A stretch of DNA of 64,000 nucleotides, taken from IMG/VR virus record IMGVR_UViG_3300030419_006795, positions 37,933-101,932 of that record; one strand, 5' to 3'. Below, piece after piece: positions 23,215 through 41,824 of the stretch. Position 1 is the first letter of the stretch, and every line of letters begins with the position of its first letter. Made by a program: the position numbers and the translations under genes. The stretch comes from a virus. Below the pieces are notes generated by a model. That model was not told where the DNA came from. It was given only the letters and a program-made list of their open reading frames with translations, and did no database searches.

Positions 23215-24975
23215 TTAGCTAGTAGCGCCGGCTTCGCCGACCATACCGCGAACGATAACCAGACCGTACATATCAGGTCGGACCATCTTCTTCGCATAGC
23301 GAGTCATGACTCCCTTACGGGGCACGAAATCTTCTGGTCCGAAGATTGTAGGTGTAGTTTGCAGTGGTACGTACGGTGCGTACACATATCCGCTTTCGAG
23401 GAAGCTTCCTCCCTTGCGGCCGACAAGAATTACACTTCGCAAGAAGTATGGATCGACATAGACGTCCCACTTCTTAGAAAGGTTTCCAGTCTTAACAGCA
23501 CCGACTGTTCCAGTTTCGCCGTCAACAGTGACATTGGCACGGAATCCAGCAGTGAACTCAAGAATAGCAGCAACTTCAGGGCTACAAACGATGAAGTTAG
23601 CACCACCTCTTAAGGTCTTGCGATGGATCTGAGCCGACACGTCATTAATGGTCTCAACAAGAGTCTCATACCACTCACTGACGGTACCGGTGAAGTCAGG
23701 GGCAGCCGAAGCAGCACCAACCTCATCACCAGTGGTACGGTTCAGGAACATACCGGGTGAACGCGACCAGTAATACTTACCAGCCTTAGCGCCGTTAACA
23801 AGATCGGCAAGAATTTCGCGATCAATCTCAAGAGCAATTTGCTCAGAAAGGATCTGAGTAAGCTCGACCTCGGCGTCAAGGTTGTGGTAGGCATTAAGAT
23901 CTTGTCCTAATTCCGGAGTCCACTTAGCCTTCAGCTTCTTGGTCTGCGCCGTTACGGCGATTGAGCCGACCTGAATGTCGATCTCTGGGATGTTACCCTC
24001 GTTTTCAAGGGCCCAATCAGTTGCACCGATAACAGAACCAACGGCCGTAGCGCTTTGGAGCTTATCGATAATTGGGAAAGTAACTTCAAGAGCACTTGCA
24101 GTGACGTAGTTACTAAGAACTTCCTGAGTGGTAGTTGTTACTTCGGAACCTGTAGATGCAAAGACCAACAGAACGTGCGATTGTGCTGAACCAGAGAACT
24201 GAGTCAGTCGACGCACTTGGTGGCCAGCGCTGAATGTTCCAAGGGTACTATCATAAAGCGTAATTGCTTGAAGATTACCCGGGGATCCGTCCAAAGTGTT
24301 ACCATTAGAGCTTGTAAGTCTTGCAACTGGAACCTTGACAACTTCAACTCGGGTAGAACCAGAGGTGAGATCGAGGTCGTAGCGACAAATTCTATCAAGC
24401 TCCTGATCACCGGTACCAAAGGTACCACTGTGGTGGTGATCAACCAAAAGGTTGGTCAAAGAAGCAGTGGTCGAGGAATAACCGTTGTTTAAGTTAAACG
24501 GACCATCCTCGGCATTGTCGAGCGTCATGTCCACACCGCCGGTGATCTGTTGACCCACGACTCCTTGGCCATAAATAGACTCATTCTTCTCATATGATAA
24601 TCTTCCGTTTGTACTGGTACCTTCACCAATGGTGTTGGAAACAGTAAAGTCAAGGAAGAAGATCAGACCCGATGGCAAGCTCATTGGCTGCACGGATACT
24701 AAATCATTCGCGATTAAACCTGCGAATACTCGGCGGACAATTGGGAATGCAACAGCAGCAAAGCCCTCAACATCACCACCCGACATTGTTGAAACCTCAC
24801 GAAGCAGTTCCTTCGCTTGATTTTCTAAAAGTCGAGCCATGCTTTGACGCTTACGCTCATCTTGCAGTCCTTCAAGAAGACCAGTTTTTTCCCACTTCTT
24901 GAGAAGTGCGTGACCTTCTTTTTTCATATCACGATTGACCATGCCCTCGGTCAATCTTTCTACGATACTAGACAT
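23215..24975 (-). CDS. Major capsid protein (gp23-like)
   Basis: A 586-residue capsid subunit. FPIVRRVFAGLIANDLVSVQPM (about 77-98) followed by LPSGLIFFLDF is the gp23 N-terminal signature; the C-terminus has LRGGANFIVCSPEVAAIL, YVDPYFLRSVILVGRKG and YVYAPYVPLQTTPTIFGPEDF. Residues 1-70 are a helical, charged propeptide ending in DVE followed by G71, close to where the prohead protease cuts T4 gp23 (after residue 65). The ribosome binding site AAGGAGGT is the best in the window, as expected for the most abundant virion protein. Scaffold and protease genes lie upstream. Confidence 0.95.
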   Translation of the reverse strand: MSSIVERLTEGMVNRDMKKEGHALLKKWEKTGLLEGLQDERKRQSMARLLENQAKELLREVSTMSGGDVEGFAAVAFPIVRRVFAGLIANDLVSVQPMSLPSGLIFFLDFTVSNTIGEGTSTNGRLSYEKNESIYGQGVVGQQITGGVDMTLDNAEDGPFNLNNGYSSTTASLTNLLVDHHHSGTFGTGDQELDRICRYDLDLTSGSTRVEVVKVPVARLTSSNGNTLDGSPGNLQAITLYDSTLGTFSAGHQVRRLTQFSGSAQSHVLLVFASTGSEVTTTTQEVLSNYVTASALEVTFPIIDKLQSATAVGSVIGATDWALENEGNIPEIDIQVGSIAVTAQTKKLKAKWTPELGQDLNAYHNLDAEVELTQILSEQIALEIDREILADLVNGAKAGKYYWSRSPGMFLNRTTGDEVGAASAAPDFTGTVSEWYETLVETINDVSAQIHRKTLRGGANFIVCSPEVAAILEFTAGFRANVTVDGETGTVGAVKTGNLSKKWDVYVDPYFLRSVILVGRKGGSFLESGYVYAPYVPLQTTPTIFGPEDFVPRKGVMTRYAKKMVRPDMYGLVIVRGMVGEAGATS

Positions 24976-26196: not shown

Positions 26197-29100
26197 TCAC
26201 TGCTCAACCCAATCCCCACTTGGATTAAAATATATCGTCTTACCAGTAGAAGAGCTTACTGCATAACCGATCACTCGCGATACATCCCCGCTTGCTGTGG
26301 GCTGTGTTTGGGTCATCTCTCCCGGCGTCGTAGATACATAAAGTGCTGATCCGTGGGTTAATTTATACACCGGCGATGCCGTCAGTGTGCCCGATATGTT
26401 TGCGTAACCATTGACCAATAATCCATCTGATATCCCAGTGCCCAGTGCAATGCCAAGCATGACACCACCACATGATGCTACCGCGTCAGCGTCAGCGTGC
26501 TTCCAGATCCCACCCGTTGCAAGATACATAAGCTTTCCTATGGCCAGAGTATCGCTGGAGTCCTCTGTTCCGAAGAACACTATTTCTCCATGCGCTTTGT
26601 TTGCGGGGAGTGCGTCAACACCCTTTTGGCGAGACGACATCGCTGTGGATTCAATTGAAAGGCTTCCAATTGAGTCAACTCCGACAAAAGCAAAATTAGC
26701 ATCATCATAGTTTAGTCTTAATTGCGATGACGCATATGTTGGCGGCGATGTTGCTGCATGTGTCAAAGTTGCCTGTGAACCTGTTAAGCCGTATCCGTAT
26801 ACGTGACCACCTGTAAAGTGAGTAGATGCGCTCATGTGGGTTCCAGCTTCAACGAAACCTGTGTATACCGCTTCGCCTCCAACGTGAGAGAAGCCGTGCA
26901 CGGAGGATGCTGAAAGAAGACCGAAGAACGTTCCAAGTGTACCAGTCACACCATAAGCATATACGTGACCACCTGTGAAGTGGGTAGCTGCGCTCATATA
27001 AGTGCCGGCTTCGACGAATCCGGTATATGTAGCCTCACCTCCAACATGAGAGAAGCCGTGCACAGAGGATGCCGAGAGCAGTCCAAAGAATGTTCCAAGT
27101 GTACCAGTAATTCCGTAAGCGGAGACTGCGCCACCAGTTATTTCTGTAGATGCTGATACGGTCGTAGGCGCCCAAACATGAGCGTACATGGTTGATGCTG
27201 ACAGAATATCAAATTTACCAGTGTGTCCTCTATGCCAACCACCGGTGATTTCCGTAGAAGCTGACACGTTCGATCCTATGAATACTGATGCGGAGACTGT
27301 GCCGGCATGTTCTCCGTGTGTGGTTCGTACAGCAAAACCCTCATAAGAAGATGCACTGACAACGCCACTGAATGTGCCCAGCGTACCAGTAATTCCGTAA
27401 GCGGAGACTGCGCCACCAGTTATTTCTGTAGATGCTGATACGGTCGATGGGGAGAAGACGTGAGCATGCACCGTCGATGCTGACAGAATGTCAAATTTGC
27501 CGGTGTGTCCCCTATGCCAACCACCGGTGATTTCCGTAGAAGCTGATACATTCGATCCTATGAATACTGATGCAGAAACTGTGCCAGCATGTTCGCCATG
27601 AGTAGTTCGTACGGCAAAGCCCTCATAAGAAGACGCACTGACGACGCTGCTGAATGTTCCCAATGAAGCGGTAACGCCGTAAGCATAAACGTGTCCACCA
27701 GTTAAGAATAGAGACGCTGATACATTGTTGTGTGCAATGAATTCGTCGCCAGTATGCGAATATGCCAACAATACAGATGCTGTGACTTCCGTAGCACTGA
27801 TGTTTGTAATTGTCGCTTTTGAGCCGGTTATACCGTATGCATAAACATGACCACCAGTTAAATATAGCGAGGCGGAGATAGTCGATGGAGAGAAGACATG
27901 AGCATGTATCGTCGATGCTGACAGAATATCAAATTTGCCAGTGTGTCCTCTGTGCCAACCACCGGTGATTTCTGTTGAGGCTGATACATTCGATCCTATG
28001 AATACTGATGCAGAGACTGTACCAGCGTGTTCTCCGTGTGTGGTTCGCACAGCAAAACCTTCGTAAGAAGATGCACTGACGACGCCACTGAATGTTCCGA
28101 GTGTTCCAGTAATTCCAAATGCCGAGACGGCGCCGCCGGTTATTTCTGTAGATGCTGATACGGTCGATGGGGAGAAGACGTGAGCATGCACCGTCGATGC
28201 TGACAGAATGTCAAATTTGCCGGTGTGGCCCATGTGTAAGCCGCCACTTACAATAGTGGAGGCAGACAACGTTGTACCAAACAACAGCGAAGACGAGACA
28301 TGCGTTGCAAATTCGCCTTTAGCGCCTTCGAACTTAAATCCTTTATGCCAACCGCCAGAAACCACCGTAGAGGCAGATATGGTCGATGGGGAGAAGGCGT
28401 GAGCATACACCGTCGATGCTGACAGAATATCAAATTTGCCGGTATGGCCCATATGCAAACCGCCACTTACAAGAGTTGACGCAGACAATGTTGTACCATA
28501 CAGAAGCGAAGATGAAACGTGAGTGCCAACTTCGACCTTGTCGCCGGCAAACTTATGCATATCAGCCCAGCCACCAGTAATCTCTTGAATTGTCGCTAGC
28601 GATCCGGTTATGCCATACGCCATTAACTGACTACCGGTTACAACGCCCAGACCGCCGACGGTAAGTGTGTTACCGTCAAAAGTAAGATTGCCCTCAACAG
28701 TAAAAGTGTTATCAGATGTTTTCCAAGTTATAACGCCATCGTCGTCATCACCCGAAACGCTTCTAGCGGAACCGCCGCCGCCGCCATCTGGAGTCGACAA
28801 CACAATTTTACCAGTTGTTGTCATAGCCAAGTAGCTTCCGCCGCCGGCGCGGGAACCGCTTTCCACGGTGTCAGTGTCGATTACCAAGCTAGAACCGCTT
28901 AGAACAAGGCCACCTGCATCTGAGCCTGAAATTGTTAGGAAATCTTGGCCGGCCTCATCGTACCTGATGTGTGATTCTTGATCTGTGCCAAAGTGGACTT
29001 TGTCATCATCCTCAACAAGGGCGCCCATTGACATCGTAAGAAACTCAGTAACCATCAAGCCGAATGTACCGCGGTGTGCTTTAACTTGTCCACCTGTCAC

Positions 29101-30462
29101 TAACAAACTAGCAGAGACCATCGAGCCTTTATAAAGAGATGATGACACGTGACCCGGGAAACGACCATCATAGGCTGTAACATATGCTCCGCTAATTCCG
29201 TGTGTTGGCGCAACCAATCCATAGGATGCTGTAAGGTGGCTGCCTATAGTGGTTGTGTGGTCGATGGTTGAGCCAAGTATCGATGAGCCACTAACTATTA
29301 GTTCGCCGGCCATAATTGTTAAGGCGGGGCTTGAGCCAGAAATTGTGACGGATCCAGTTACCTCAACTGTGCCATCTGTAATCGTTGTGCTGCCGGCAGA
29401 GCCGCTTTCCGGCGTTGAGCCACTATAGTGCGAACCACTGGTTGAGTGCATAGTTGTGCTGTCTGTGTCTTCGTATGTAGTCCCGCCCGGCGTTGTGGTA
29501 GTGGTTCCCGGGGTCGACCCGCTCATATAAGAGCCAGTCGCAGATGTCGAAGTGGTACTTCCGCCGGCGTCTGTATATGTGGATGAGCCCGATCCATGGG
29601 TTGCAGATCCGCCCGAACCAGTCATAGATGAGCCGGTCGCAGATGTCGAAGTACTGCTTCCACCAGCGTCTGTATGTGTGGTTGAGCCTGATGTTGTCGA
29701 TGTTGATCCGCCGGAGCCCGAGATTCCGGTTTCGTTTGCAGAAATGGTAGTGGTGCTACCGCCGGCATCCGTATATTCTGTGGAGCCTGTTGATGTCGTT
29801 GTCGAACCTCCAGAGCCTGATGTGTATGAACCAGTTGCAGAAACAGTAGTGGTGCTTCCACCAGCGTCTGTGTACGATGTAGATCCTGATGTTGTTGAAG
29901 TAGAGCCTCCGGAGCCTGTGGTATATGAGCCAGTTGCAGAAGTTGAATGTGTGCTACCGTCAGCGCTTGTGTAAATTGATGAACCCGAACTGTGGGTTGC
30001 TGAACCGCCAGAGCCAGTTCCGGCGCCGCCTCCGGAGCCACTAATATAAGAACCAGTCGCAGATGTCGAAGTGGTGCTGCCATCAGCACTTGTGTGGGAT
30101 GTAGAGCCTGATGTTGTCGATGTTGAACCGCCAGAACCCGTAGTGTATGAGCCAGTTGCAGAAGTTGAGTGTGTGCCATCAGCATCGGTGTATGTTGAGG
30201 AACCAGAGCCGTGCGTTGCGGAGCCTGCTGAGCCGCTGGTAACAGATCCGGTCGCAGAGGTTGACGTACTGCTGCCGGCGGCATCGGCAAATGTAGTTGA
30301 ACCTGATGTTGTGGTCGAGGATCCATGGGCGCCGCTAAGCTCGGTACCACTTCCTGAAACTGTAATTGCGCCTTCAGATCCGGTGACAATAAATGAGCCT
30401 GTAATAGCTACCGATCCTGCTGAACCGGATATACCTGCTGAAGTTATTACTATTTTGCCCAT
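26197..30462 (-). CDS. Very long repetitive fibre-like protein
   Basis: A 1421-residue protein in three parts. Residues about 35-350 are low-complexity Gly/Ser/Thr in 25-30 residue units (TGSGGSTSTTSGSTxxTxADG). Residues about 600-1235 are longer repeats built from modules such as HTGKFDILSASTVHAHVFSP, STEITGGAVSAYGITGTLGT and SSYEGFAVRTTHGEHAGTVS. The last 170 residues (HGEIVFFGTEDSSDTLAIGK, GDVSRVIGYAVSS, IYFNPSGDWVEQ) are a compact tip-like domain that I associate with environmental phage fibres. It starts at the TAATG overlap with the upstream fibre gene. Likely a head or tail fibre; receptor binding is inference. Confidence 0.78.
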   Translation of the reverse strand: MGKIVITSAGISGSAGSVAITGSFIVTGSEGAITVSGSGTELSGAHGSSTTTSGSTTFADAAGSSTSTSATGSVTSGSAGSATHGSGSSTYTDADGTHSTSATGSYTTGSGGSTSTTSGSTSHTSADGSTTSTSATGSYISGSGGGAGTGSGGSATHSSGSSIYTSADGSTHSTSATGSYTTGSGGSTSTTSGSTSYTDAGGSTTTVSATGSYTSGSGGSTTTSTGSTEYTDAGGSTTTISANETGISGSGGSTSTTSGSTTHTDAGGSSTSTSATGSSMTGSGGSATHGSGSSTYTDAGGSTTSTSATGSYMSGSTPGTTTTTPGGTTYEDTDSTTMHSTSGSHYSGSTPESGSAGSTTITDGTVEVTGSVTISGSSPALTIMAGELIVSGSSILGSTIDHTTTIGSHLTASYGLVAPTHGISGAYVTAYDGRFPGHVSSSLYKGSMVSASLLVTGGQVKAHRGTFGLMVTEFLTMSMGALVEDDDKVHFGTDQESHIRYDEAGQDFLTISGSDAGGLVLSGSSLVIDTDTVESGSRAGGGSYLAMTTTGKIVLSTPDGGGGGSARSVSGDDDDGVITWKTSDNTFTVEGNLTFDGNTLTVGGLGVVTGSQLMAYGITGSLATIQEITGGWADMHKFAGDKVEVGTHVSSSLLYGTTLSASTLVSGGLHMGHTGKFDILSASTVYAHAFSPSTISASTVVSGGWHKGFKFEGAKGEFATHVSSSLLFGTTLSASTIVSGGLHMGHTGKFDILSASTVHAHVFSPSTVSASTEITGGAVSAFGITGTLGTFSGVVSASSYEGFAVRTTHGEHAGTVSASVFIGSNVSASTEITGGWHRGHTGKFDILSASTIHAHVFSPSTISASLYLTGGHVYAYGITGSKATITNISATEVTASVLLAYSHTGDEFIAHNNVSASLFLTGGHVYAYGVTASLGTFSSVVSASSYEGFAVRTTHGEHAGTVSASVFIGSNVSASTEITGGWHRGHTGKFDILSASTVHAHVFSPSTVSASTEITGGAVSAYGITGTLGTFSGVVSASSYEGFAVRTTHGEHAGTVSASVFIGSNVSASTEITGGWHRGHTGKFDILSASTMYAHVWAPTTVSASTEITGGAVSAYGITGTLGTFFGLLSASSVHGFSHVGGEATYTGFVEAGTYMSAATHFTGGHVYAYGVTGTLGTFFGLLSASSVHGFSHVGGEAVYTGFVEAGTHMSASTHFTGGHVYGYGLTGSQATLTHAATSPPTYASSQLRLNYDDANFAFVGVDSIGSLSIESTAMSSRQKGVDALPANKAHGEIVFFGTEDSSDTLAIGKLMYLATGGIWKHADADAVASCGGVMLGIALGTGISDGLLVNGYANISGTLTASPVYKLTHGSALYVSTTPGEMTQTQPTASGDVSRVIGYAVSSSTGKTIYFNPSGDWVEQ
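26780..28620 (-). repeat. Long internal coding repeats with near-identical DNA
   Basis: Modules recur with little change. For example, the stretch starting at 27421 and that starting at 28141 are identical for more than 80 bases, exactly 720 bases (240 codons) apart. Other partial copies begin near 27120 and 27880. Confidence 0.85.
29410..30360 (-). repeat. Low-complexity Gly/Ser/Thr-coding tandem repeats
   Basis: About ten degenerate units of 75-100 bases encode TGSGG(S/A)T..SGST..DAGGSTT-type peptides. Units vary in length and sequence but keep the reading frame. Confidence 0.8.
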
Positions 30463-32747
30463 TACTCTTCAATCTCCTCTAATACGAATTTGTACAGCTT
30501 TCCTGTTTTTTGATTCCTTATACTCAAATAGTCTGCTTCCTCGACAATCAACCAATCGCCTCTATCATTATTTAAACGAAGGTCACCAGTTGTAATGTTT
30601 GCTGTATAAATATGTGCCCATCGTTTCGAAGCAGAACCCAAGTTAATGTCATTATCGTTAAGGGGAAGAATATCATTGCCAGTTGGATCGACTATAATGT
30701 CACCAGCAGCATTAAGAAGTAAATTGCCATCAGGATTTATTGTAAGATGGGCGTCCGCACCATCATCATCAACCGTTAAAATTGTTGTTGCGCCGGCGAG
30801 ACCTGTTGAAATCGTGCATTTATCGCCGGTATCGGCGGAAGAAAGTAACTCAATATGAGTGTTGGTGTCGGCCTGACCTAAATTAATTGAAAGGCCAGTG
30901 TTTGTATGTGTTCCATCAGCATCGCCGGTCATCACAATTCTGTGACCATAGGAATTTAACGTGCCGTCGCCGGCGACGTTGGTTTCGATATCTGTTTGGA
31001 TTCCAACCACAACACCGGTGGCGCTTGTGATCTCTCCAGTCTGATCTAGATCGATTTGAAGACCGGTTACAGCATCAACAGCTGCAGTACCGTTTGCATT
31101 TCTATCAATTTTAATGCCAGCAACGCCGCCGTTACTATCAGATTGTACAAGTAGCGCAGTGGCGTTAATGGCAGCGCCGGCGTTTTGCACAACTGCTGCT
31201 ACATTTCTAGTGCTGTTGTTCGTTGATTCGCTTTCGACATAAAACGCAGTACCAGTCGTGAGCGCATCCGCTGAAATATTAAGCGCCTTAGCAGTTGTAA
31301 CCGCATCTGCTGCAATATCAACAACATTCGCATCAATATTCTCAGCGGCGATACTAAGGGCAATCGCGTCTGTATCATCATTATCAATAAGAAGGGCCGT
31401 TGCTCCCGAGTCTGAATCATTTTCTATCTCAACCCCGTCGCCGTCAATCTTAATTGCGCCATCAATATCCATTGTAAGATCTGCGCCGTGATCGGAGCCA
31501 TTCTCATACGTTTTAAGGGTGGTCGCGCCGGCGGCTGTTACTTCAATTGCAAAATAGTCCGCGGTGTCGGCAGAGCTAACAATTAGCAAATCCTGACCGC
31601 CATCAGCACAGTTGATTATGAGGCCCTTGTTGGTGTCGGCGCCAACAGCAGTCAACTCCATGCCGGTGGCGGCTGATGTGCCGTTGCCACCGCCGGTTGC
31701 AGTAATGACTGCGCCTTTTACAGTTGGCGTGCCGGCGTTTGCAGCATGTGACAAGGTCGGGGTCACCTGAATACCAGTCATGTTATTGACGCCGGCTGTT
31801 GCTGTTGTGTTATCCACGTCGATGGTAGCCCCATAGATCGTGTTCGCAGTAGTCGAAGTGCCAGTTTTATCTAAGTCAATTTCGAGGCCAGTGACGGTCG
31901 ATGCATTAACGCTCGAATAGTCCTTGTCCAAGATCATTCCGGTACCGCCGCCAACAGATATAACTTTCAATGCAGTAGCTGAGGTAGCGCTAGCGTGTTG
32001 TTGATGAACAAGCACTAAATCTCTGGAAGTGTTGTTTGCTGAGTTGTCTTGAATTTTCATCGCGGCGCCTGAAGTTAGAGCGTCTGCTGAAACATCAATT
32101 ACATTTGCTGTTGTCACTGCATCTGCTGTAATTTCTAAAACATTAGCGGTTGTTTGTGCTGCTTCGATGTGCATTGCTACTTCATCGACATCATTCGCAT
32201 CGATTACAAGTGCCGTTAAAGCCTCGCCATCAGCAACTGATATTTCTGCCTTCGCATCATTCGAAGACCCTGCGCTGTGAGGTGTAGATTTCGGTTCTTT
32301 TTCGCCAATTCCAAATCTATCTAAAACATATGAATTTATTGCATTCAGCGTGCTGGCGCCTGTTACCTGTAAGGAACCTGAAAAGCTGTGTTTATCGCGG
32401 TTAACACCCTGACCAAAGCTGGTTGATCCAGATTGATGTATCTCAGTTAAAGTTGTTGTTATAACATCGAAACTGTTTGCAAAAATTGTGCCGCTAACTC
32501 TTATGTTTCCTGATACTTGGAGGAATGGCGGGTGGAAGGTGGCGCCGACGTCGAGTGTGCTTGTGTACGCACTGCCCGATGCAATTGTAAATCCCTCAGA
32601 GATAGCTGCGGCCGGGCGGATCCACATAAGCTCTTCTTGACCACGAATAGATCTATGGCCATCTTTAAACATAACTGAGCCAGTTGGCCCGGTCGATCCC
32701 GTTACAATCTCGGGATCACAATCGATATATGCCCATCCTATTCCCAT
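30462..32747 (-). CDS. Fibre-like structural protein with internal repeats
   Basis: A 761-residue beta-rich protein. The N-terminus (GIGWAYIDCDPEIVTGSTGPTGS) includes a short collagen-like GSTGPTGS stretch. Two related halves, about 175-400 and 455-680, repeat motifs such as TALVIDANDVDEVAMHIEAA, ITADAVTTANVIDVSADALT and GLEIDLDKTGTST. The C-terminus has NDINLGSASKRWAHIYTANI and RGDWLIVEEADYLSIRNQKT, common at fibre ends in environmental phages. It shares its last base with the start of the 1421-residue gene, so the two are coupled and probably form one appendage. It is inserted between the protease block and scaffold relative to T4 order. Confidence 0.78.
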   Translation of the reverse strand: MGIGWAYIDCDPEIVTGSTGPTGSVMFKDGHRSIRGQEELMWIRPAAAISEGFTIASGSAYTSTLDVGATFHPPFLQVSGNIRVSGTIFANSFDVITTTLTEIHQSGSTSFGQGVNRDKHSFSGSLQVTGASTLNAINSYVLDRFGIGEKEPKSTPHSAGSSNDAKAEISVADGEALTALVIDANDVDEVAMHIEAAQTTANVLEITADAVTTANVIDVSADALTSGAAMKIQDNSANNTSRDLVLVHQQHASATSATALKVISVGGGTGMILDKDYSSVNASTVTGLEIDLDKTGTSTTANTIYGATIDVDNTTATAGVNNMTGIQVTPTLSHAANAGTPTVKGAVITATGGGNGTSAATGMELTAVGADTNKGLIINCADGGQDLLIVSSADTADYFAIEVTAAGATTLKTYENGSDHGADLTMDIDGAIKIDGDGVEIENDSDSGATALLIDNDDTDAIALSIAAENIDANVVDIAADAVTTAKALNISADALTTGTAFYVESESTNNSTRNVAAVVQNAGAAINATALLVQSDSNGGVAGIKIDRNANGTAAVDAVTGLQIDLDQTGEITSATGVVVGIQTDIETNVAGDGTLNSYGHRIVMTGDADGTHTNTGLSINLGQADTNTHIELLSSADTGDKCTISTGLAGATTILTVDDDGADAHLTINPDGNLLLNAAGDIIVDPTGNDILPLNDNDINLGSASKRWAHIYTANITTGDLRLNNDRGDWLIVEEADYLSIRNQKTGKLYKFVLEEIEE

Positions 32748-33030: not shown

Positions 33031-33447
33031 TTAAACTAATTTACCCCACATTTTGGAAGCTTCAGCCAATGGTCCGGCGAAAGGAACACCCGGATCGTCA
33101 TGTTCTCCCAAATCAGTTGAGCCCGGCTTGGGGGCACCGCTATCAGAAATCGGTTTTGTACCCTCAAATAAATCAACGCCATTGTAGGCGTCTGAGCCGA
33201 TGGCGTCTAATAGTCTTTTTTGGTGTTGATTTATCTTCTTTTTGGTCTCTGCTATTCTTTTGTAATCAAGTTCTTGTTTCGGTGCTGTTTTTGCTGTTTT
33301 TGCCTTCTCGACGATTGGTGGTGCCGAGGAAACTCCTTTTACCACCTCACTTACAATTCCAGAAAGCAACCCTTCTTCTAGAAGGGTTTCTTGTACGCAC
33401 TCTTTCACTAGTGGTTTTATAAGCTTCTTTAAATCTGCCTTATTCAT
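33031..33447 (-). CDS. Small protein with N-terminal helix and LEE-G site, unknown
   Basis: A 138-residue protein whose N-terminus (NKADLKKLIKPLVKECVQET, then LLEEG) is an amphipathic helix related in style to the LRxIIxEE motif of several small proteins in this window. The middle has a Lys-rich helix (KRIAETKKKINQHQKRLLDA), the end is Pro/Gly rich. It overlaps the prohead protease 3' end by 8 bases, with GAGG upstream. It could be a head-internal protein, but no family is recognised. Confidence 0.75.
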   Translation of the reverse strand: MNKADLKKLIKPLVKECVQETLLEEGLLSGIVSEVVKGVSSAPPIVEKAKTAKTAPKQELDYKRIAETKKKINQHQKRLLDAIGSDAYNGVDLFEGTKPISDSGAPKPGSTDLGEHDDPGVPFAGPLAEASKMWGKLV

Positions 33448-34045
33448 CTAGAGCCTCGTTGATTAATCTGTTGATTTTATCTGCTTTTGTGAAGATGTTT
33501 GATTCTTTTAAGCTTTTAGACTCTTTCATCATGTAGGCGCCGGGTGTTGAAGGTTCTGATACAAAATCAAAACAAATTAACTGAAAATCATCTTCAACAA
33601 TTGTGCCATTTTGGCTTTCTTTAACAGAACCCATTCCTCTTGAAGAAATTCCGAGGCTAACACCTGATTTTACAAGCTCTTGCAGTACTTTTCCAGATGG
33701 TGTGTCCAAAATTCTAACCTTGCCCATGACATCTTGCCCCTCCCACCATATGCTGGTGCAAAGGTGTGATGCATTCTTAAGATTGATCACTGAGTCGTCT
33801 GGGTGGTCTAATTCTCCGAGCGCTCGTCGCTCTTTTACAAGCTTAGAGTAGTTTTCAACCTCACGAACAAGAACTTTGTGTGGATAAATTCTTCCATTTC
33901 CATTAACAGTGTCTGATTTTTGCATAATTCCAGACAAAATCATACCGCCGCCGGCCACAAACCTCTTCTCTTCCTCGGTTAAAAGATCCTGACAGACGCC
34001 CCCTTCACATAATTCATAAAATTCTCGTAAAAGTACCTTACCCAT
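33440..34045 (-). CDS. Prohead maturation protease (gp21-like)
   Basis: A 201-residue serine protease that matures the head by cutting scaffold and capsid propeptides. The catalytic His is likely H81 in GELDHPDD and the Ser is in SLGISSRGMGS (about 134-135); GRIYPHKVL near 51-60 is typical of the phage prohead protease fold. I choose the ATG at 34045 because AAGGGGAG lies 7 bases upstream; an upstream ATG at 34090 in the same frame has no such site. The C-terminus (KADKINRLINEALDE) is helical and may be autoprocessed. It lies upstream of scaffold and capsid, with fibre genes and bS21 inserted between. Confidence 0.9.
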   Translation of the reverse strand: MGKVLLREFYELCEGGVCQDLLTEEEKRFVAGGGMILSGIMQKSDTVNGNGRIYPHKVLVREVENYSKLVKERRALGELDHPDDSVINLKNASHLCTSIWWEGQDVMGKVRILDTPSGKVLQELVKSGVSLGISSRGMGSVKESQNGTIVEDDFQLICFDFVSEPSTPGAYMMKESKSLKESNIFTKADKINRLINEALDE

Positions 34046-34093
34046 AGCTAACTCCCCTTGCAGCAATGGCGAACTGGCTGCAACATCCATTTA

Positions 34094-34429
34094 CTAGTCC
34101 ATGTCTTTCCCATTTCTAACTCCTATTTGTATTCCGTTATCGCAAAATAAAACGTTCAAGATATATGATGTACCTGAACTAACACAACCTAAAATAAAAT
34201 AATTTATTAAAGATGTCTCAAACGTAAATAGTTGCGTATACGTACTAACGCCGCATAAAAATACGCCAACCCAAAAACCCATACACATGGGGCAGTGGAA
34301 TAATTCTCCAAATCCATTAAGCCACTGTTTAGTCGGCCTTATCTTGTTGAAAATTGTTCCGTAAATAAGAATTTGAGTTAAACCATACGCCGCCAGTACA
34401 AACCACAATAAATTAAGCAACTCTATCAT
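34094..34429 (-). CDS. Three-helix membrane protein (DUF1360-like)
   Basis: A 111-residue integral membrane protein with helices near 4-24, 48-68 and 73-95. The motif FHCPMCMGFWVG at the second helix recalls DUF1360-type membrane proteins. ATG overlaps the previous stop as ATGA, with GGAGAAGG upstream, so it is co-translated with the 155-residue protein and the FtsZ-like gene before it. A membrane anchor or a role at the host envelope is possible; no function is known to me. Confidence 0.78.
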   Translation of the reverse strand: MIELLNLLWFVLAAYGLTQILIYGTIFNKIRPTKQWLNGFGELFHCPMCMGFWVGVFLCGVSTYTQLFTFETSLINYFILGCVSSGTSYILNVLFCDNGIQIGVRNGKDMD

Positions 34430-34893
34430 TCCTTCTCCGTTGTTAAAATTTCCTCTAAATCATTAATCTGTATTATCATATCCGATGCTATATTTTCAAA
34501 CGGCTGTGCGTTGCCGGATATCGATGATAACTTATTTGTCAGGCTTCTTAATTCTTCTAGAATATCCATTGGCTCTTGAGTCATCACCACCTCCTCAAGA
34601 GGTGCCTGCTTTTCATTATATATGCTTTCTAGCTCAATGCCAATCCTGCCTGCAACGGCGTCAGCTGCACTATCGACAATGCTTTTAATTTCCGTTTCAG
34701 CTACAAAGTCTTTTAACAAATTGTGCAAGGTGCCGTTAATCGCCGATTGAATTGAGGCGAGAGCCACCTCGCTTTGAGACATGGAAGCTTCTAAAACAAC
34801 ACTTTCGTCAAGTCGTTCTTTTTTTTCAGAACGCAACATTATATCATACTCTTCTTGAATAATCTGCATGAGGCGGTGTCTGCTTATTTTCAT
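34426..34893 (-). CDS. Small protein with N-terminal LxxIIxEE motif
   Basis: A 155-residue helical, acidic protein beginning MKISRHRLMQIIQEEYDIML, one of the family of small proteins that share this N-terminal helix. A possible protease site LDE-S occurs near residue 28. The start at 34893 is chosen because GGGAG precedes it by about 10 bases, it lies 14 bases after the FtsZ-like stop, and it places the family motif at the N-terminus. Head-internal location is a hypothesis. Confidence 0.78.
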   Translation of the reverse strand: MKISRHRLMQIIQEEYDIMLRSEKKERLDESVVLEASMSQSEVALASIQSAINGTLHNLLKDFVAETEIKSIVDSAADAVAGRIGIELESIYNEKQAPLEEVVMTQEPMDILEELRSLTNKLSSISGNAQPFENIASDMIIQINDLEEILTTEKE

Positions 34894-34907: not shown

Positions 34908-35957
34908 CTAATTTCCTTTGGGTAAACCATTCATGCACAAGATAGCAACCAAGCCCGGTACGTTCTCTTTAACATAGACTCCGGAAAAAAGTGTCTCTGT
35001 TCTTCCTCCGACGTACGAAATTGCATTATCTAGGTGTTTGCTGATCTCTGGATCAGACGCCATCTCAGGGCTCACCACCAATAGTAGTGTGCCTGTTTTT
35101 GGGCGCCCAGAGGGCTGCGGGCAGGGAGAGCGCTTCAGGCAATTTTGTAAAATCATCGATCCAAGGTTGGGACTGGCCGGGTCAGCAATCATCGTAGACC
35201 CAATAAACATTCTACCATCTGTGCTTAAGCACCTAGCAAGATCTTTTGAATCAAAAGACTGGATTGGTGACTGTTCTGCAGACAATCTTAGCACCTGCGT
35301 TAAAAGCTTGGCAAACGCCGTATTGGCAAACGGAAACATTCCAAGCATGCCAACCTTGCCTCTGAGTAACTTAACCTGCCTTTCATTGTCGATCACAATG
35401 TGCGAGTGCTTTGATACGTCATTAATAAGTGACAGTGCATTTTTGCTAATTGTGGGGTTCAAACACTCTTGTGCTGTTGGCCACGATGCGACATAAAGTA
35501 TGTCACCATCGGCCTGAACAGACTTTAAGTATCTTTCGAAAACAGAATGCAATGAAGCGGTGGCACTACCAGTACCTCCGCCACCGCCTGATAATACGAT
35601 AAGCCAATCAACCTTGCCAAGTTTTGTCCGCAAGGCATCTTCAACAACGGCGCTATTGGCGTCAAGTACGGATTTGCCCAAGCTGACATCTTTTCCGATC
35701 CCATCAGCATCCGGAATAAGCACTACATGTGATTCATCGACGTCGCTTGGGATATCTTTTGGAGTAGTATTAATCAACAATGTTTTATTGTAGCCGATAT
35801 CTAAAAAGGCTTTTGCCATTTTGCCGCCCCCACCACCAACGCCAATAATAGCACAGTTTAGCGATGAGCCAACTTCGTTATCTGGTAACTGATCTTCGTT
35901 GGCTACCTCTTCGGCTTCGCCATAGTGATCTATAAAATCAAAATCATCCATTGTCAT
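34908..35957 (-). CDS. FtsZ/tubulin-family GTPase
   Basis: A 349-residue cytoskeletal GTPase homologue. GVGGGGGKMAKAF at 39-51 matches the FtsZ nucleotide-binding T1 region, SGGGGGTGSA at 123-132 is the tubulin signature loop, and SFDSKDLA at 234-241 aligns with the FtsZ T7 synergy loop (NxDFAD), keeping both aspartates that trigger GTP hydrolysis in the neighbouring subunit. FtsZ-like GRMFIGST and GTLLLVVSPEM follow. Length equals the FtsZ core; there is no clear C-terminal FtsA/ZipA tail. The N-terminal 33 residues are acidic. ATG follows AAAGGAGA. It lies between portal and protease genes in the head operon. Filament formation is expected from the family; its role in infection is unknown. 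Confidence 0.88.
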   Translation of the reverse strand: MTMDDFDFIDHYGEAEEVANEDQLPDNEVGSSLNCAIIGVGGGGGKMAKAFLDIGYNKTLLINTTPKDIPSDVDESHVVLIPDADGIGKDVSLGKSVLDANSAVVEDALRTKLGKVDWLIVLSGGGGGTGSATASLHSVFERYLKSVQADGDILYVASWPTAQECLNPTISKNALSLINDVSKHSHIVIDNERQVKLLRGKVGMLGMFPFANTAFAKLLTQVLRLSAEQSPIQSFDSKDLARCLSTDGRMFIGSTMIADPASPNLGSMILQNCLKRSPCPQPSGRPKTGTLLLVVSPEMASDPEISKHLDNAISYVGGRTETLFSGVYVKENVPGLVAILCMNGLPKGN

Positions 35958-36168
35958 TTGTAATCTCCTTTAGATATTCTTGTAATTCTTCTCTAATAAT
36001 TAGTCTCATTGTTTCTTCTGTTACAGTTTTATCCAAGCCCTCATCGGTATTAGCATACAAAGCCTTAAGGTACTGCTTTACGGGGCCCTTTGTACATCCC
36101 ATCTTTTTACCGCGTGAGCCATCTTTGTTTTTTTTATAGACGCATTTTCCAGATGTCGTGTATGGCAT
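35944..36168 (-). CDS. Small basic protein with C-terminal LIIREEL motif
   Basis: A 74-residue protein: GKCVYKKNKDGSRGKKMGCT (two Cys, basic) then GPVKQYLKALYAN, and a C-terminal helix TEETMRLIIREELQEYLKEI that resembles the N-terminal motif of the small-protein family here. AGGAATATAG precedes the ATG. It overlaps the FtsZ-like start by 14 bases, so the two are coupled. Function unknown. Confidence 0.78.
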   Translation of the reverse strand: MPYTTSGKCVYKKNKDGSRGKKMGCTKGPVKQYLKALYANTDEGLDKTVTEETMRLIIREELQEYLKEITNDNG

Positions 36169-36191: not shown

Positions 36192-36611
36192 TTAATCCGT
36201 CAGGCCCGAGCCCGATATCTCGCCCATTGAGTTAGTATCTATGTTTGTTAATTCAGCAATAACTCGATATTCGGCGGTGCCGGCGGGTGAAGACACGTAG
36301 ATCTCTTTACATTTAACATTTAAAGTCATTGAGAGCGGCCGCTCAGAGTTCGATCCGCTGGATCCGGGCCCTAGTTCAACGTAATGGTGTCCAGCTACGA
36401 CTCTCGACGATCCGGTAGGGTTAAACGAAAACCTAATAGGGGTGAGTGACATGTTATACACTGTCACTGCGCGCGTTACTTTCGGGAACGATATTTGGTG
36501 TTCAGTGCCTGCCGTCAATGCGGCCGAACCTGTGATATATGGATAACCCGATACTTGATATGATCCAACGTTGTTTAAGCCGGGTGGATATCTCCATGAA
36601 TTTGCTGGCAT
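36192..36611 (-). CDS. Small beta-rich virion-type protein
   Basis: A 139-residue protein with YITGSAALTAGTEHQISFPK, AVTVYNMSLTPIRFSFNPTG and EIYVSSPAGTAEYRVIAEL, suggesting a beta-sandwich of the kind found in decoration or fibre-attachment proteins. AGGAGAATAAAA precedes the ATG. It is the first gene after a promoter-like element and lies between the portal block and the FtsZ-like block. No family recognised. Confidence 0.7.
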   Translation of the reverse strand: MPANSWRYPPGLNNVGSYQVSGYPYITGSAALTAGTEHQISFPKVTRAVTVYNMSLTPIRFSFNPTGSSRVVAGHHYVELGPGSSGSNSERPLSMTLNVKCKEIYVSSPAGTAEYRVIAELTNIDTNSMGEISGSGLTD

Positions 36612-36647: not shown

Positions 36648-37196
36648 TTAAATTGTGTATAAATAACTTAAAGAATATGGATCTCTCACATATCCCTTCC
36701 TAATAGAGCCCTTTTCAACAGAGTGCTCAACATCTCCCAAATCAGTGCTATCGATATTTTCCGGATCCGTCATGTCATCTTCAAACTCATCAACAATACT
36801 ATCAACGAATTCAAAGTAAGGCCGCTCATCATCAATAAATTTTGAAATATTTAACAATGCAATCTTTGATGAGCTTAAGTTTTCATCAACTGATTCTAAT
36901 ATGACTGCTTCCATTGAGCCATACACATTACCTGCTTGAACTGACTCAGGAACAATCACTCCTTTTTTTCTAAGGAAAGTAAACAGTCTATTTTGGGCGC
37001 CGTATACCGTATCGGACATGTTCTCCTTCGCGAACGTTACAATTTTATTGCCATCAGGACTTAAAACAATATCAATATCACCATGATCGAAAATCATAAG
37101 ATCGCCATTGAGGGCTTTACGAATATTTAATTCAAGCCTTATGAGATTTTGTTTTGGCTTATTAAGTTCTTTTCCAATGGATACGCTAACAGACAT
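36648..37196 (-). CDS. Uncharacterised head-cluster protein
   Basis: A 182-residue protein with KQNLIRLELNIRKALNGDLM near 15-34, a short acidic C-terminal third (VDEFEDDMTDPENIDSTDLG) and no membrane segment. It starts at a TAATG overlap with the previous gene. I recognise neither fold nor family; co-location with the portal suggests a packaging or head role. Confidence 0.75.
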   Translation of the reverse strand: MSVSVSIGKELNKPKQNLIRLELNIRKALNGDLMIFDHGDIDIVLSPDGNKIVTFAKENMSDTVYGAQNRLFTFLRKKGVIVPESVQAGNVYGSMEAVILESVDENLSSSKIALLNISKFIDDERPYFEFVDSIVDEFEDDMTDPENIDSTDLGDVEHSVEKGSIRKGYVRDPYSLSYLYTI

Positions 37197-38017
37197 TATT
37201 CATAAATTCCCTTAACTAAATTTTGGGTTTTTAAAATCTGTCGTAACATTTTCTCATCTATTGCAACTTTAGAATAAGAATTGAGTTTTTCCATTAGGGT
37301 GTTTATTTTTTCACACATTATGGAATCGCTTGAAATCTCATCCAAAGATAGTGATTTCTTTAATTCAGTTTTTAATCTGCTCAATTCCTCATTCAAAAAC
37401 ATTTTTAATTGAACACCATTATCCGAGAAAGAAGATATATAATGACTTAAAAGCAATTTTTGCTCGCTTAATAAATCATTTGAATACTTTTCATTGAATT
37501 TGCCAATAAACGACTTTAATACAAGGTTGTCAATTGGTTTGAGATTTTTTTCATCAATAGTGGAAGTATCACACATATATTGAACTATTTCTTTTTCCAA
37601 CAATATCGATGACTTGGGGTTTAGTTTTCCACTAAATATCTGAGATATGGATGCCAAGGTTTTGTAGTTTGGAATAAAATTGTTATAAACATCCGAGCTT
37701 AATTCTTTGTTAATCTCGTTGATTAGTTTTGTCTGTTGCTTAAACACTACCTGTGGGTTTAGGAATCTATGTTGCAGTTTAGCTTCTTTGAGAACTTTTT
37801 CGCATTCGTCTTTCTCCAAAGCACAGTTTTCATAAAGACTCTTGTAAAGTTCCAGCTCCTCTCTCAAAATACACCCAGTTGAAAAATATTTCTTCACTAT
37901 CTTCAGTGTTTTGATTTTCTTTTTATCATTTTTTTCAATAATACTTTTAGTAATTTCTTTAATTAAAGATTCGTATATAAAAGCAGTATTTCTTTTTTTA
38001 TTGTGCTTTGGTTTCAT
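37196..38017 (-). CDS. Uncharacterised helical protein next to the portal
   Basis: A 273-residue, Lys/Glu/Leu-rich, almost entirely helical protein starting MKPKHNKKRNTAFIYESLIK. I recall similar N-termini in hypothetical proteins next to portal genes in environmental T4-like phages. It overlaps the portal 3' end by 20 bases with AAAAAGG upstream. Its helical make-up would fit an assembly factor, but this is a guess. Confidence 0.75.
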   Translation of the reverse strand: MKPKHNKKRNTAFIYESLIKEITKSIIEKNDKKKIKTLKIVKKYFSTGCILREELELYKSLYENCALEKDECEKVLKEAKLQHRFLNPQVVFKQQTKLINEINKELSSDVYNNFIPNYKTLASISQIFSGKLNPKSSILLEKEIVQYMCDTSTIDEKNLKPIDNLVLKSFIGKFNEKYSNDLLSEQKLLLSHYISSFSDNGVQLKMFLNEELSRLKTELKKSLSLDEISSDSIMCEKINTLMEKLNSYSKVAIDEKMLRQILKTQNLVKGIYE

Positions 38018-39959
38018 CCTTTTTTAACTCCACTATGTTTTCTTTTTCTTCAAGTGACTTAATTAAGCCCCTAACTTCGTGATTGATTTCGAACAGACGA
38101 TTTTCATTGTCATTATAAATAGGGCCTTGTTGCTCGTAAATACTTCCGCGGGCATGGGTTCTTAATTCTGGCGCGCCTAGATTGTTCTTTCTATAGGTAT
38201 TTACCTCCGGAGAGGCGGCCCTAGCCATGTTTCTTCTTAAAGCCCCAAGACGACGTTGGTCGACCTTTACTCTATGATATTTGCTGGTGCCATGGCCATC
38301 TGGTGATTTATAAATTGTAGGCGAATCTCTATGGCCCGGGGGCGGGCCCTCTGGGGAAGTGAGAAGCATTGATTCGTCGCCCGGAGGCACCTCATCGGCG
38401 GGGGGCGGTGCGGTTTCTAGATCTGCTTCGGGCCCCTCAGCGCCTTCGAGACCTCCTAGGTCACCACCCAAATCGCCACCCAATCCGCCGCCTTCGGCGC
38501 CGAGAGCGCCTGCTTCGGCAATCGCTTGCAGCGCAGAATCCTGCTTACGATCATAAAACAACTCTCTTTGATTGCGAAGGAATTCTTCTTCAGACATATT
38601 GAATAGTTTTTCAGCAACCCATCGTCTCGAAAAATAACCCTCATTTGCTGCGGCGGCCGTATCAAATTTAGATCTCCAGTGTTCAAGCTCCTGCAATTCT
38701 GCGATTTTTGATGGATTGTTTAATGCCAACTTGAAACTGAGAAGGTCGTCTCCTCGAAAGCCCAATGTATATAAGTGGATAATTCCAATTTTTTCCAACT
38801 CAGATACCACAACTCGCTGTAATCTTTGAATAGTTCTTGCGAATCTAATATCTTTTTGTGCTAATGTTGTTTTGTCTTCGTCCGCTCCTTCACCGCGAGA
38901 CAAATAAGATTGTGGTACCTTTAATGCAGAAAACAGCTTATCTCTTAAATATTTAATATCGTCAATCTCTGTTGCGTTCGAGCCGCCCGGGAGCGTTGTT
39001 ATATCAGATGAGGAATTTGCACGAACAGGAATAAAGTAATCCTCCTCAATACTTAATGGATTATATCTAAGGTCAACGCGCCCGGTGTCAGGATCAACAA
39101 CTTGGTGGCGCTTCATCTGTGTTACAATTTTTTGCATATACTGTTCGACATCTTGTGGTGGAATTGAACCAACATCGATCTTGAAGACCCTTCTCTCTGG
39201 TGAGCGAATGACACGATATGCCATCATTGCGTCTTCCATTAAAGTAAGTTGGCGCCAAATCCTTCGGGCCGGCTCTAAAATTGATGTACCGTATGGCGCA
39301 TACTTATCGTTTCCTAAGATTCTAAAGTGAGATATCTGCCAATTCTCAAACGTCATTCCGGCATTATTCCACTGATATTGAATATAATTTGGGTTTGTTG
39401 CGTCTAATCCCTCAAGTCTTTCGACCTCCTGAGAGGGCAGGGCTATGGTTGACTTAACTCCATATTTTTCGTCGATATCTAAATACAAAAAGAAGTCGCC
39501 GTATTTAGACATCGTTCGGCACCATCCAAATAAATTGTAATTAATGTTCATTATGTTATGATACAGAACATCAAGCACTGCTTTGATTTCTTCGTTGGTG
39601 CAATGTATTTTTAACATTGGCTGGAGACTTGAATGTGTTGTCATCTCATCTGCGTATATGTCTAAGGACGAGGCAATCTCTGGCATGTATTCCATTTGAT
39701 CGAAGTCAATATATCTTTCGCTTCTTCTTTGATTTGCAATTGCATTAACAGCAACGACGTCTAGTGGATTGTAGGTGCTCCGTTTAAACTGTTGCCCACT
39801 GGCTGAACGGAACCTTGACGAATATTTATCCAAGTGTTGTCTTCTGATCTTTCGGCCGGTCTGGCTACGATAGTTAATGATTGGTCCGGAAAACAATCTT
39901 GTCAAACTCTTGAATAATTGAGATTGCGGATTTCTTGGATTTTTAGGATTAATTGCCAT
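37998..39959 (-). CDS. Portal protein (gp20-like)
   Basis: A 653-residue portal, the dodecameric ring for DNA entry and exit. FDQMEYMPEIASSLDIYADE near 85-105, NYNLFGWCRTMSKYGDFFLY, YGTSILEPARRIWRQLTLME, and IDDIKYLRDKLFSALKVPQS followed by YLSRG are hallmarks of gp20. It is longer than T4 gp20 (524 residues) because of a C-terminal Gly/Leu/Pro-rich tail (about 490-580) and a basic segment. It lies 9 bases downstream of the large terminase, which must dock on it. Confidence 0.95.
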   Translation of the reverse strand: MAINPKNPRNPQSQLFKSLTRLFSGPIINYRSQTGRKIRRQHLDKYSSRFRSASGQQFKRSTYNPLDVVAVNAIANQRRSERYIDFDQMEYMPEIASSLDIYADEMTTHSSLQPMLKIHCTNEEIKAVLDVLYHNIMNINYNLFGWCRTMSKYGDFFLYLDIDEKYGVKSTIALPSQEVERLEGLDATNPNYIQYQWNNAGMTFENWQISHFRILGNDKYAPYGTSILEPARRIWRQLTLMEDAMMAYRVIRSPERRVFKIDVGSIPPQDVEQYMQKIVTQMKRHQVVDPDTGRVDLRYNPLSIEEDYFIPVRANSSSDITTLPGGSNATEIDDIKYLRDKLFSALKVPQSYLSRGEGADEDKTTLAQKDIRFARTIQRLQRVVVSELEKIGIIHLYTLGFRGDDLLSFKLALNNPSKIAELQELEHWRSKFDTAAAANEGYFSRRWVAEKLFNMSEEEFLRNQRELFYDRKQDSALQAIAEAGALGAEGGGLGGDLGGDLGGLEGAEGPEADLETAPPPADEVPPGDESMLLTSPEGPPPGHRDSPTIYKSPDGHGTSKYHRVKVDQRRLGALRRNMARAASPEVNTYRKNNLGAPELRTHARGSIYEQQGPIYNDNENRLFEINHEVRGLIKSLEEKENIVELKKDETKAQ

Positions 39960-39968
39960 ATTTTAAAC

Positions 39969-41552
39969 TCACTTTATTAGCCACATTAAATGATCATAGC
40001 TTTCTTTTTGTTCAGCTATTCTATCGGTCATTTTTGTGCTTTTGTTTTTGTCCATTCCCTTAATTGTAGTATCAAAACTCGTTTTTGTGTAGACTATAGA
40101 GCTTAAAAAAGCCCTTTGATAATCCATGCTTCTTTGGTTAACTTGGAGTGCGGTGTCCCTAATCCAACATGCAATTGCCAACGACATAACCAAGTCATCG
40201 TTGTACCCTCTCATGGCCTGTGGTTTTCCGTACTGCCAAATAAAAGTCCTCATTTCGTTTATTAAACGACTAGAATTCACAGTAATTAGTTCATTTCTTA
40301 TGAATTCTTCAAGTTTGGCAACTATTAAAGGACGCGTCTTTGAAGTCGTTGAAAAGCCCATCACCGCATTTGTTTGGCTTTCGGCTTGATATTGATCGAT
40401 ATATTCATGTGTTGACTTAACTGAATAGTAAACATTCGGATATCCAAACTCAACCAATTTTTCCAATACAGCGTATCCGATACTGTTGTTTTCAACAACA
40501 ACCAAACAATCTCCAAACTCTCTACCTATTTGATTAATCATGTTGCCAAATAGGTCTGGTGTAGGTTTTCCTTGGTATTCCCCTATAATCTCTAAAGTTT
40601 CAAGCTTGATAATGTGAAATACAGAATAGTCGGTCCCATCACCTCTTGCAACATCAGCAACCATGAGATAATTGCACGATGGATCGTGCTCTTCCCAAAT
40701 CCAAAAATTTCTATCAAATGCTGTTTTGTATTTTGGCTCTCTCACGTTTTTTGCTAGCTTTTCCAAATCTTCCGGATCAATTACAGTTTCGCCAGAAGTA
40801 TTAAAATTGCACTCTAGCTCTTGGGCAATTTGTCGTCTAGACATATTTGCTGTTTCTTTTTCAAACCATTGCTGATCGCGATCTGGATGTACATCCCATG
40901 GTAAGTTCGTGGGATGAAAATTGTTTGCCCCAGAGTCAGCTTCCATATATGTTTTGTGAAACCAATTTCCAACACCATTTGGGGTTGATAGTGCAATACA
41001 CCTACCACCCGTTGACAGCGTGGGATACAGACCGGTCCACAACTCTTCTAATCCCTCAATGTGAGCAGCCTCATCAAGCACAAGCAGGGAGAGTGATTCA
41101 GAACGACCAGCATCACCAGAAGTTGAGGAAGCTTTAATAAAAGATCCATTTGATAATTCGAATGATGTACGGTTGTCAACAGAAATTTCTGCAATTTTTA
41201 TAAAGTCAGGCAGGTTTTTCATTATGCTTTTGACTTTTTTAACGAGGTTTGCAGCGGTACCAAACTTGGTTGCCATAACCAAAACGTTTTTATCGCGATG
41301 AAACAACATCAGCCAAACAACATAGCCCGCAGTTATGGTCGAAATACCTAATTGGCGGGCTTTTAATATCACATTAAAACGATAATCATTAAAATCGTCT
41401 AGTAATTCTTGTTGAAAATCGTATGTTCTGAAAGGTATAGTGCCGTGCAGGGGGTGTGAAATTCTTGCATATGTATTAAGAAAGTATGTCGGATCCTTGC
41501 CGCACTTTAGGATCTCTTTCATCATATCTTTTTTGGTTAATTGAAAGCTCAT
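39969..41552 (-). CDS. Terminase large subunit (gp17-like)
   Basis: A 527-residue packaging motor. The ATPase has a Walker A-like KARQLGIST at 64-72 and Walker B LLVLDEAAH near 155-163, with the coupling motif ALSTPNG after it. The nuclease carries metal-binding acidic residues in VADVARGDGTDYS (about 299), VVVENNSIG and YNDDLVMSLA (about 455). Length is close to the family; T4 gp17 is 610. ATG overlaps the previous stop by 4 bases. No small terminase is recognisable nearby, though one of the small upstream proteins could serve. Confidence 0.95.
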   Translation of the reverse strand: MSFQLTKKDMMKEILKCGKDPTYFLNTYARISHPLHGTIPFRTYDFQQELLDDFNDYRFNVILKARQLGISTITAGYVVWLMLFHRDKNVLVMATKFGTAANLVKKVKSIMKNLPDFIKIAEISVDNRTSFELSNGSFIKASSTSGDAGRSESLSLLVLDEAAHIEGLEELWTGLYPTLSTGGRCIALSTPNGVGNWFHKTYMEADSGANNFHPTNLPWDVHPDRDQQWFEKETANMSRRQIAQELECNFNTSGETVIDPEDLEKLAKNVREPKYKTAFDRNFWIWEEHDPSCNYLMVADVARGDGTDYSVFHIIKLETLEIIGEYQGKPTPDLFGNMINQIGREFGDCLVVVENNSIGYAVLEKLVEFGYPNVYYSVKSTHEYIDQYQAESQTNAVMGFSTTSKTRPLIVAKLEEFIRNELITVNSSRLINEMRTFIWQYGKPQAMRGYNDDLVMSLAIACWIRDTALQVNQRSMDYQRAFLSSIVYTKTSFDTTIKGMDKNKSTKMTDRIAEQKESYDHLMWLIK

Positions 41553-41824
41553 ACATTTTTCAGCGCCATTATGACTTCTTCACGATTTACAAGATCACCT
41601 TCGTTATCTAAAACTAGAATTTCTTCAATTCCATCACGGTAGGCAGCATCTACTAATTGTGCATCTGACATCTTTGCAACGCCATGTGGATCCAAAGCAT
41701 CGTACATTTCGTCTTCGCCGCCCATGTCATGATAATGCCCTTCGTTCAAAACGGCCCTAAGCTCTTCTTTGACAATCTGCCTAAGTTGTGACTTACTAAT
41801 TGTTTTTGAATTTTTCTGTCGCAT
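41549..41824 (-). CDS. Small acidic protein with LRQIVKEE motif
   Basis: A 91-residue protein starting with a basic tail then ISKSQLRQIVKEELRAVLNE, the shared small-protein motif, followed by G and HYHDMGGEDEMYDALDPHG. The LNE-G junction resembles gp21-type protease sites. The C-terminal half is an acidic helical domain. AGGAGATC precedes ATG by about 9 bases. It overlaps the genes on both sides, including the terminase by 4 bases. Confidence 0.78.
   Translation of the reverse strand: MRQKNSKTISKSQLRQIVKEELRAVLNEGHYHDMGGEDEMYDALDPHGVAKMSDAQLVDAAYRDGIEEILVLDNEGDLVNREEVIMALKNV

Follow-up and report, generated by a model that had tools for sequence, protein, structure and literature searches.

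We propose that FtsZl, a GTPase of the FtsZ/tubulin superfamily encoded by a large T4-type phage, is a GTP-driven filament that organises late virion assembly or packaging, a reading to which we give a probability of about 0.4. Its membership in the superfamily is solid, and the best reading of its relationships is that it represents a third family of phage FtsZ/tubulin GTPases, which is not FtsZ, PhuZ or TubZ by the features tested. Tentatively, FtsZl may be an undescribed third phage cytoskeleton, i.e., a dynamic FtsZ-like filament, encoded by a core gene of widespread T4-type jumbo phages devoid of a nucleus, that would organise assembly or packaging in the open cytoplasm. It is from sequence that we infer its polymerisation, late expression, tethering and role in assembly.

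The FtsZl Gene and Its Neighbourhood

The window, i.e., the whole stretch of 64,000 nucleotides that was analysed, belongs to a 101.9-kb viral record, and a 203-kb contig carries an identical FtsZl gene. The coordinates and the 349-residue length given in a preliminary description agree with the ORF list of the window, which places the gene on the minus strand; the description gave no strand, and the plus strand of the same interval is riddled with stop codons. The surrounding genes form a T4-type head operon with little space between them (TerL, portal, small ORFs, FtsZl, a 155-aa ORF, DUF1360 and protease), past which are found the gp23-type major head protein (MCP), the tail sheath and the tail tube (Table 1). 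The gene had been said to sit between the portal and the prohead protease, which is true in the window, except that it adjoins neither of them: four small ORFs separate it from the portal gene, and the 155-aa ORF and DUF1360 from the protease gene. The ATG of the 155-aa ORF (34893) lies 14 nt past the FtsZl stop, and the listed GTG start (34938) is less likely. The presence in the window of a good ribosome-binding site proper to FtsZl, and the overlap with the upstream ORF, count for the filament reading.

Table 1. Features of FtsZl and of its surroundings in the window.
Feature	Position	Strand	Remarks
Major head protein (MCP), gp23 type	23215..24975	-	PHROG 138, E 3e-72
Head maturation protease, gp21 type	33440..34090	-	PHROG 207, E 5e-57
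DUF1360 protein	34094..34429	-	hydrophobic
155-aa ORF	34426..34893	-	directly downstream of FtsZl; N-terminus MKISRHRLMQIIQEE; no family match
FtsZl, FtsZ/tubulin-superfamily GTPase	34908..35957	-	349 aa
FtsZl N-tail	residues ~1-20		disordered, acidic, with DFDF motif
FtsZl GTPase domain	residues ~34-200		
FtsZl H7/T7 and C-terminal domain	residues ~204-345		no C-terminal tail
Ribosome-binding site AAGGAG	35965..35970	-	7 nt ahead of FtsZl ATG at 35957; read from the sequence
74-aa ORF	35944..36168	-	overlaps FtsZl start by 14 nt; LIIREEL motif
139-aa ORF	36192..36611	-	head region
182-aa ORF	36648..37196	-	conserved in the clade
273-aa ORF	37196..38017	-	conserved beside portal; also in immuto and Mel-JY01, 26-28%
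Portal protein, gp20 type	37998..39959	-	PHROG 213, E 2e-71
Terminase large subunit (TerL)	39969..41552	-	PHROG 2, E 5e-52

FtsZl Belongs to the FtsZ/Tubulin Superfamily

From the following lines of evidence, we conclude that the identity of FtsZl does not result from a chance resemblance. First, the protein matched the Pfam Tubulin family (PF00091) at the curated cut-off (33 bits, E 9e-8) and FtsZ at the profile level (E 4e-10), with the T1, T4 and T7 loops aligned. Second, its best whole-protein sequence match in the PDB was the archaeal CetZ of Methanosaeta thermophila (3zid; residues 38-346, E 7e-8, 18-21% identity), followed by many FtsZ. Third, AlphaFold2 run on a 66-sequence alignment (mean pLDDT 94.2, pTM 0.91, superseding an earlier model based on 25 close sequences with a pLDDT of 71) predicted a complete two-domain FtsZ/tubulin fold joined by the central helix H7, which Foldseek matched across both domains to FtsZ, CetZ and TubZ, protofilament structures included (TM-score ~0.65-0.79, 15-20% identity). 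Fourth, 18 active-site positions are invariant (see below). The PHROG matches were weak (17961, residues 39-184; 4733, "tubulin PhuZ", residues 35-134, E 5e-4).

The motifs on which the preliminary description had relied are present as described: T1 is IGVGGGGGK (38-46), the T4 signature is GGGGGTGS (124-131) and the T7 loop is QSFDSKDL, with both aspartates D236 and D239. The structure prediction and Foldseek comparison that it had called for found the tubulin GTPase core (pLDDT 94), and its assignment to the FtsZ/tubulin GTPases is borne out by the conserved fold and intact active site.

Active Site, Terminal Tails and Proposed Filament

All 18 nucleotide-loop and T7 positions checked (G39, G41, G42, G44, N63, T65, D85, G126-S131, R142, E164, N191, D236 and D239) are invariant in 125 non-redundant relatives, including the two catalytic aspartates, which align with the FtsZ T7 loop. 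Conservation in these relatives is highest in the nucleotide loops and T7, whose mean entropy is 0.09-0.67 bits (T4, 0.09; T7, 0.36) against 1.18 bits for the rest of the core. The pairwise dN/dS values, where measurable, are 0.01-0.08, similar to those of TerL, and the FtsZl gene is under purifying selection.

The termini are arranged differently from those of FtsZ. In the 125 sequences, only 0-7 residues follow G344, and neither a linker nor a conserved peptide of the FtsZ C-terminal type was found. Instead, where FtsZ would have its C-terminal tail, FtsZl has an N-terminal tail, often acidic, of 18-149 residues. The tail harbours the motif D-F-[DG]-F once in 90 of the 125 sequences and two or three times in 30, the remaining 5 lacking it by the strict pattern. 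This motif, which was not found in the other proteins of the window, is presumably a docking peptide.

In FtsZ and tubulins the GTPase site is completed across the head-to-tail interface between subunits, and in bacteria tethering is the job of the FtsZ C-terminal peptide. Since FtsZl has intact T1-T7 loops with both T7 aspartates, we propose that its GTPase is likewise completed head-to-tail, and hence that it forms a dynamic filament. The T7 loop of one subunit would complete the GTP site of the next one, generating a head-to-tail polymer, and the resulting filaments would elongate, consume GTP by hydrolysis and turn over. A tether to a partner is probably provided by the conserved DFDF peptide of the flexible N-tail, and the filament would position or deliver proheads, or a packaging/assembly zone, in a phage devoid of a nucleus. 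A precedent exists in PhuZ, by which the nucleus is positioned and capsids are brought from the membrane to where packaging takes place (PMC7950403).

The same features bear on the alternative proposal that FtsZl targets the host divisome, by co-assembling with or displacing the host FtsZ to block or redirect division, so that the cell elongates. Phages do possess small proteins that block FtsZ, e.g., T7 Gp0.4 (PMC13423816). A protein related to FtsZ could compete with it for the ends of protofilaments. Other phage proteins with a blocking effect on FtsZ are lambda Kil and SPO1 gp56. Nevertheless, we regard this proposal as unlikely for the following reasons: FtsZl is only ~18% identical to FtsZ and stands apart from the FtsZ of Flavobacteriales in the tree; only 0-7 residues follow its core, and the C-terminal peptide of FtsZ is missing; both catalytic aspartates are invariant in 125 sequences, a degree of conservation that a poison subunit would not require; and the gene sits with late, not early, genes.

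Phylogeny and Comparison with Known Systems

A tree was built with the phage proteins, the FtsZ of E. coli, Bacillus and three Flavobacteriales, two PhuZ (201phi2-1 and phiKZ) and one CetZ. The FtsZl proteins form a single clade (support 99/98), apart from FtsZ, including that of Flavobacteriales, and from PhuZ. FtsZl and CetZ were joined at 88/85, a grouping that we do not trust because of the very long branches on both sides of this pair, which includes a single CetZ sequence. The comparison with bacterial FtsZ that the preliminary description had asked for thus indicates that FtsZl is not a recent host FtsZ. The phage collection does contain FtsZ genes that look like host DNA or bacterial sequence, which could suggest that FtsZl comes from contaminating host DNA, or is a host ftsZ that was recently captured and is decaying. 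This possibility is hardly conceivable in view of the separate clade (99/98), the dN/dS values of 0.01-0.08, and the occurrence of the gene, with no frameshift and amid T4-type genes, in over 400 viral contigs; recent capture is ruled out by the tree and the selection.

FtsZl has the same fold and loops as FtsZ, but their identity is ~18% and its score on the NCBIfam model TIGR00065 (31.4 bits) is far under the equivalog cut-off (295.2); furthermore, FtsZ possesses a C-terminal linker and conserved peptide in place of the N-terminal tail. PhuZ (gp59 of 201phi2-1 and gp39 of phiKZ, two nucleus-forming jumbo phages) is also a phage-encoded FtsZ/tubulin GTPase, yet it belongs to a separate clade, and FtsZl, taken as a whole, resembles FtsZ, CetZ and TubZ more closely. 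Chimallin accompanies PhuZ, whereas FtsZl occurs in T4-type phages, in which no chimallin was found: 11 long contigs gave no match in a single-sequence search that recovered its positive control and that could miss a diverged chimallin. Moreover, PhuZ is present in only 66% of chimallin phages (PMC10299810), so that it is missing from a third of them, as compared with none of 21 long clade contigs for FtsZl. TubZ, from Bacillus plasmids and plasmid-like prophages, has the fold in common with FtsZl (TM-score 0.72-0.77 by query length, 16-18% identity) and differs by its TubR/tubC partners, FtsZl being found in T4-type phages and having no C-terminal tail. In the window, the only sequence inspected for this purpose, a Pfam and repeat search that could miss a diverged TubR detected neither a TubR-like HTH gene nor tubC-like iterons beside FtsZl, and a TubRC-like partition cassette was rejected. 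As chimallin was not found, and the TubRC features are absent from the window, neither the PhuZ-nucleus nor the TubZ-partition reading transfers directly to FtsZl.

These comparisons weigh on the proposal that the FtsZl filament acts not on proheads but on replicating phage DNA or replication factories, which it would position, spread or segregate in a TubZ- or PhuZ-like manner. This role is in keeping with the characterised phage tubulins, PhuZ and TubZ, whose targets are DNA or the nucleus (PMC7950403, PMC7824862), and with the large genomes (~200-280 kb); it appears rather improbable given the lack of a TubR-like HTH gene or a tubC-like iteron array beside FtsZl in the window, the lack of chimallin in the 11 long contigs, and the separation of the FtsZl clade from PhuZ.

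In the viral structure library (BFVD), the top matches were A0A6J5RW92 ("FtsZ" of an uncultured Caudovirales phage, E 2e-23) and A0A8S5UFG9 (Myoviridae sp. ctcyQ27, E 4e-19), followed by PhuZ-type proteins. The first two are only 17-19% identical to FtsZl and, judging by their sequences, would be other, undescribed phage FtsZ-like lineages. The 360-aa gp071 of phage immuto, encoded at the same operon position, is unrelated to FtsZl.

Genomic Context in Relatives

As judged from the flanking markers, FtsZl occupies at least six sites in its relatives (the numbers of loci are not those of independent contigs, since loci overlap between scans). It lies upstream of TerL and after SbcCD (SbcCD/137-aa ORF) in 43 loci, the commonest marker-flanked site and a point in favour of DNA positioning; between MCP and the head-tail adaptor in 42 loci, plus 24 with only the adaptor visible; between DUF1360 and the protease in 22; before a putative prohead core gene in 5; and as in the window in 3. 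No marker was in reach in 65 loci, and about a quarter of the loci have no head marker nearby. In 24 related loci, DUF1360 lies immediately upstream of FtsZl. The strand, in contrast, is constant: all marker late genes near FtsZl (1087/1087) are on its strand. The tie to the head genes therefore consists of a shared strand and, usually, a shared neighbourhood, not of a fixed place.

This finding weakens the argument for prohead positioning that had been drawn from the location in the head operon, and, with at least six positions, we abandoned fixed synteny as a functional argument; a prohead-positioning role is nonetheless plausible. The non-conserved place among head genes, and the lack of a partner gene travelling with FtsZl among the related loci, count against the assembly reading. 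As the T4-type late promoter TATAAATA was not enriched ahead of FtsZl (2 of 143 upstream regions), late expression is something that we can only infer. We favour a role late in infection because FtsZl is a single-copy core gene, is under selection equal to that of terminase, and shares its strand with the late genes.

The gene runs in the same direction as the core, MCP and protease genes and, in several sub-clades, immediately adjoins some of them, as would suit a polymer with a structural or scaffolding function in the virion or prohead (e.g., an inner body), for which GTP would be mainly an assembly switch. Such a role is very unlikely considering the strong conservation of catalytic, and not just structural, residues. 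Furthermore, prohead-protease cleavage of the N-tail at a candidate L-P-E/D-N site was dropped, because its acidic residue is variable (D in the window protein) and the model shows a structured segment there.

Some of the loci without a marker adjoin PhoH genes or a PrkA-DUF444-SpoVR cluster, known from bacterial stress and sporulation. In one sub-clade (L101, L102, L113, L119, L122 and L123), PrkA, DUF444 (YeaH type) and SpoVR lie a few genes from FtsZl (Pfam E < 1e-117 for the three representatives tested). In L055 and L058-L060, the gene immediately before FtsZl encodes a 237-aa protein (L058:7188-7901), which by eye looks like a T4 gp55-type late sigma factor, with no PHROG or Pfam match.

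Distribution and Hosts

At least 403 IMG/VR contigs encode a FtsZl relative (successive scans yielded 46, 403 and 356 contigs, in overlapping sets), while tblastn with FtsZl gave no match in 50,697 phage records or 72,556 plasmids. Exactly one copy occurs in each of 21 long clade contigs (65-281 kb), 8 of them selected solely on their terminase, including the near-identical relative of the window. Conversely, the family profile and Pfam detected no FtsZl in 8 of 8 immuto-type contigs or in Mel-JY01. FtsZl is therefore a clade-defining core gene, which substantiates the preliminary impression of an unusual T4-like system. Its divergence tracks that of TerL, MCP and portal (Spearman 0.59, 0.52 and 0.71, respectively; 0/200 permutations).

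Only three contigs were found in bacterial genomes, all binned in Flavobacteriales MAGs, and they look viral since each of these genomes also has a normal FtsZ. This binning is a weak hint of a Flavobacteriales host, with which the terminase comparison would agree, the nearest isolate being Flavobacterium phage immuto (47%), with a Microcystis phage almost as near.

Significance

Reviews name two classes of phage tubulins: PhuZ, known from jumbo phages that form a nucleus, and TubZ, known from plasmid-like prophages (PMC7950403, PMC7824862). In the literature searched, no FtsZ-like gene of T4-type phages is described, and an earlier mention elsewhere is possible. Our data suggest that widespread, large, uncultured T4-type phages build their own filament in the infected cell, though they lack the known phage nucleus, the structure that filaments of this sort had been believed to serve. 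In T4 biology, spatial assembly is left to diffusion and membrane-bound initiation. If FtsZl proved active and universally kept in T4-type phages, this would mean that phages can benefit from a dynamic filament even when they form no nucleus, and would make it testable whether these phages organise assembly in space. FtsZl also adds to the FtsZ/tubulin superfamily a deep branch with hundreds of natural variants.

Other Features of the Window

Two neighbouring tail-sheath paralogues of one family, ~1000 aa each, are encoded at 13408-16398 and 16526-19555 (minus), the latter matching PHROG 23 (tail sheath). The head region also encodes two very large Ser/Gly/Thr-rich proteins (26197-30462, 1421 aa; 30462-32747, 761 aa; minus) with few relatives among the related loci. 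SbcD and SbcC (T4 gp47 and gp46 type) are fused into one 1049-aa protein (45580-48729, minus). Finally, the motif MK-[IL]-[ST]-x-x-x-L-[RK]-x-I-I-[KR]-E-E begins, or occurs in, many small proteins of the window (42898-43347, 42576-42827, 41796-42224, 41549-41824, 43908-44216 and 34426-34893; all minus). This repeated motif is similar in sequence to the capsid-targeting signals, with their I-x-E site for the prohead protease, of T4 internal proteins; if it acts in the same way, it would identify many proteins as packaged.
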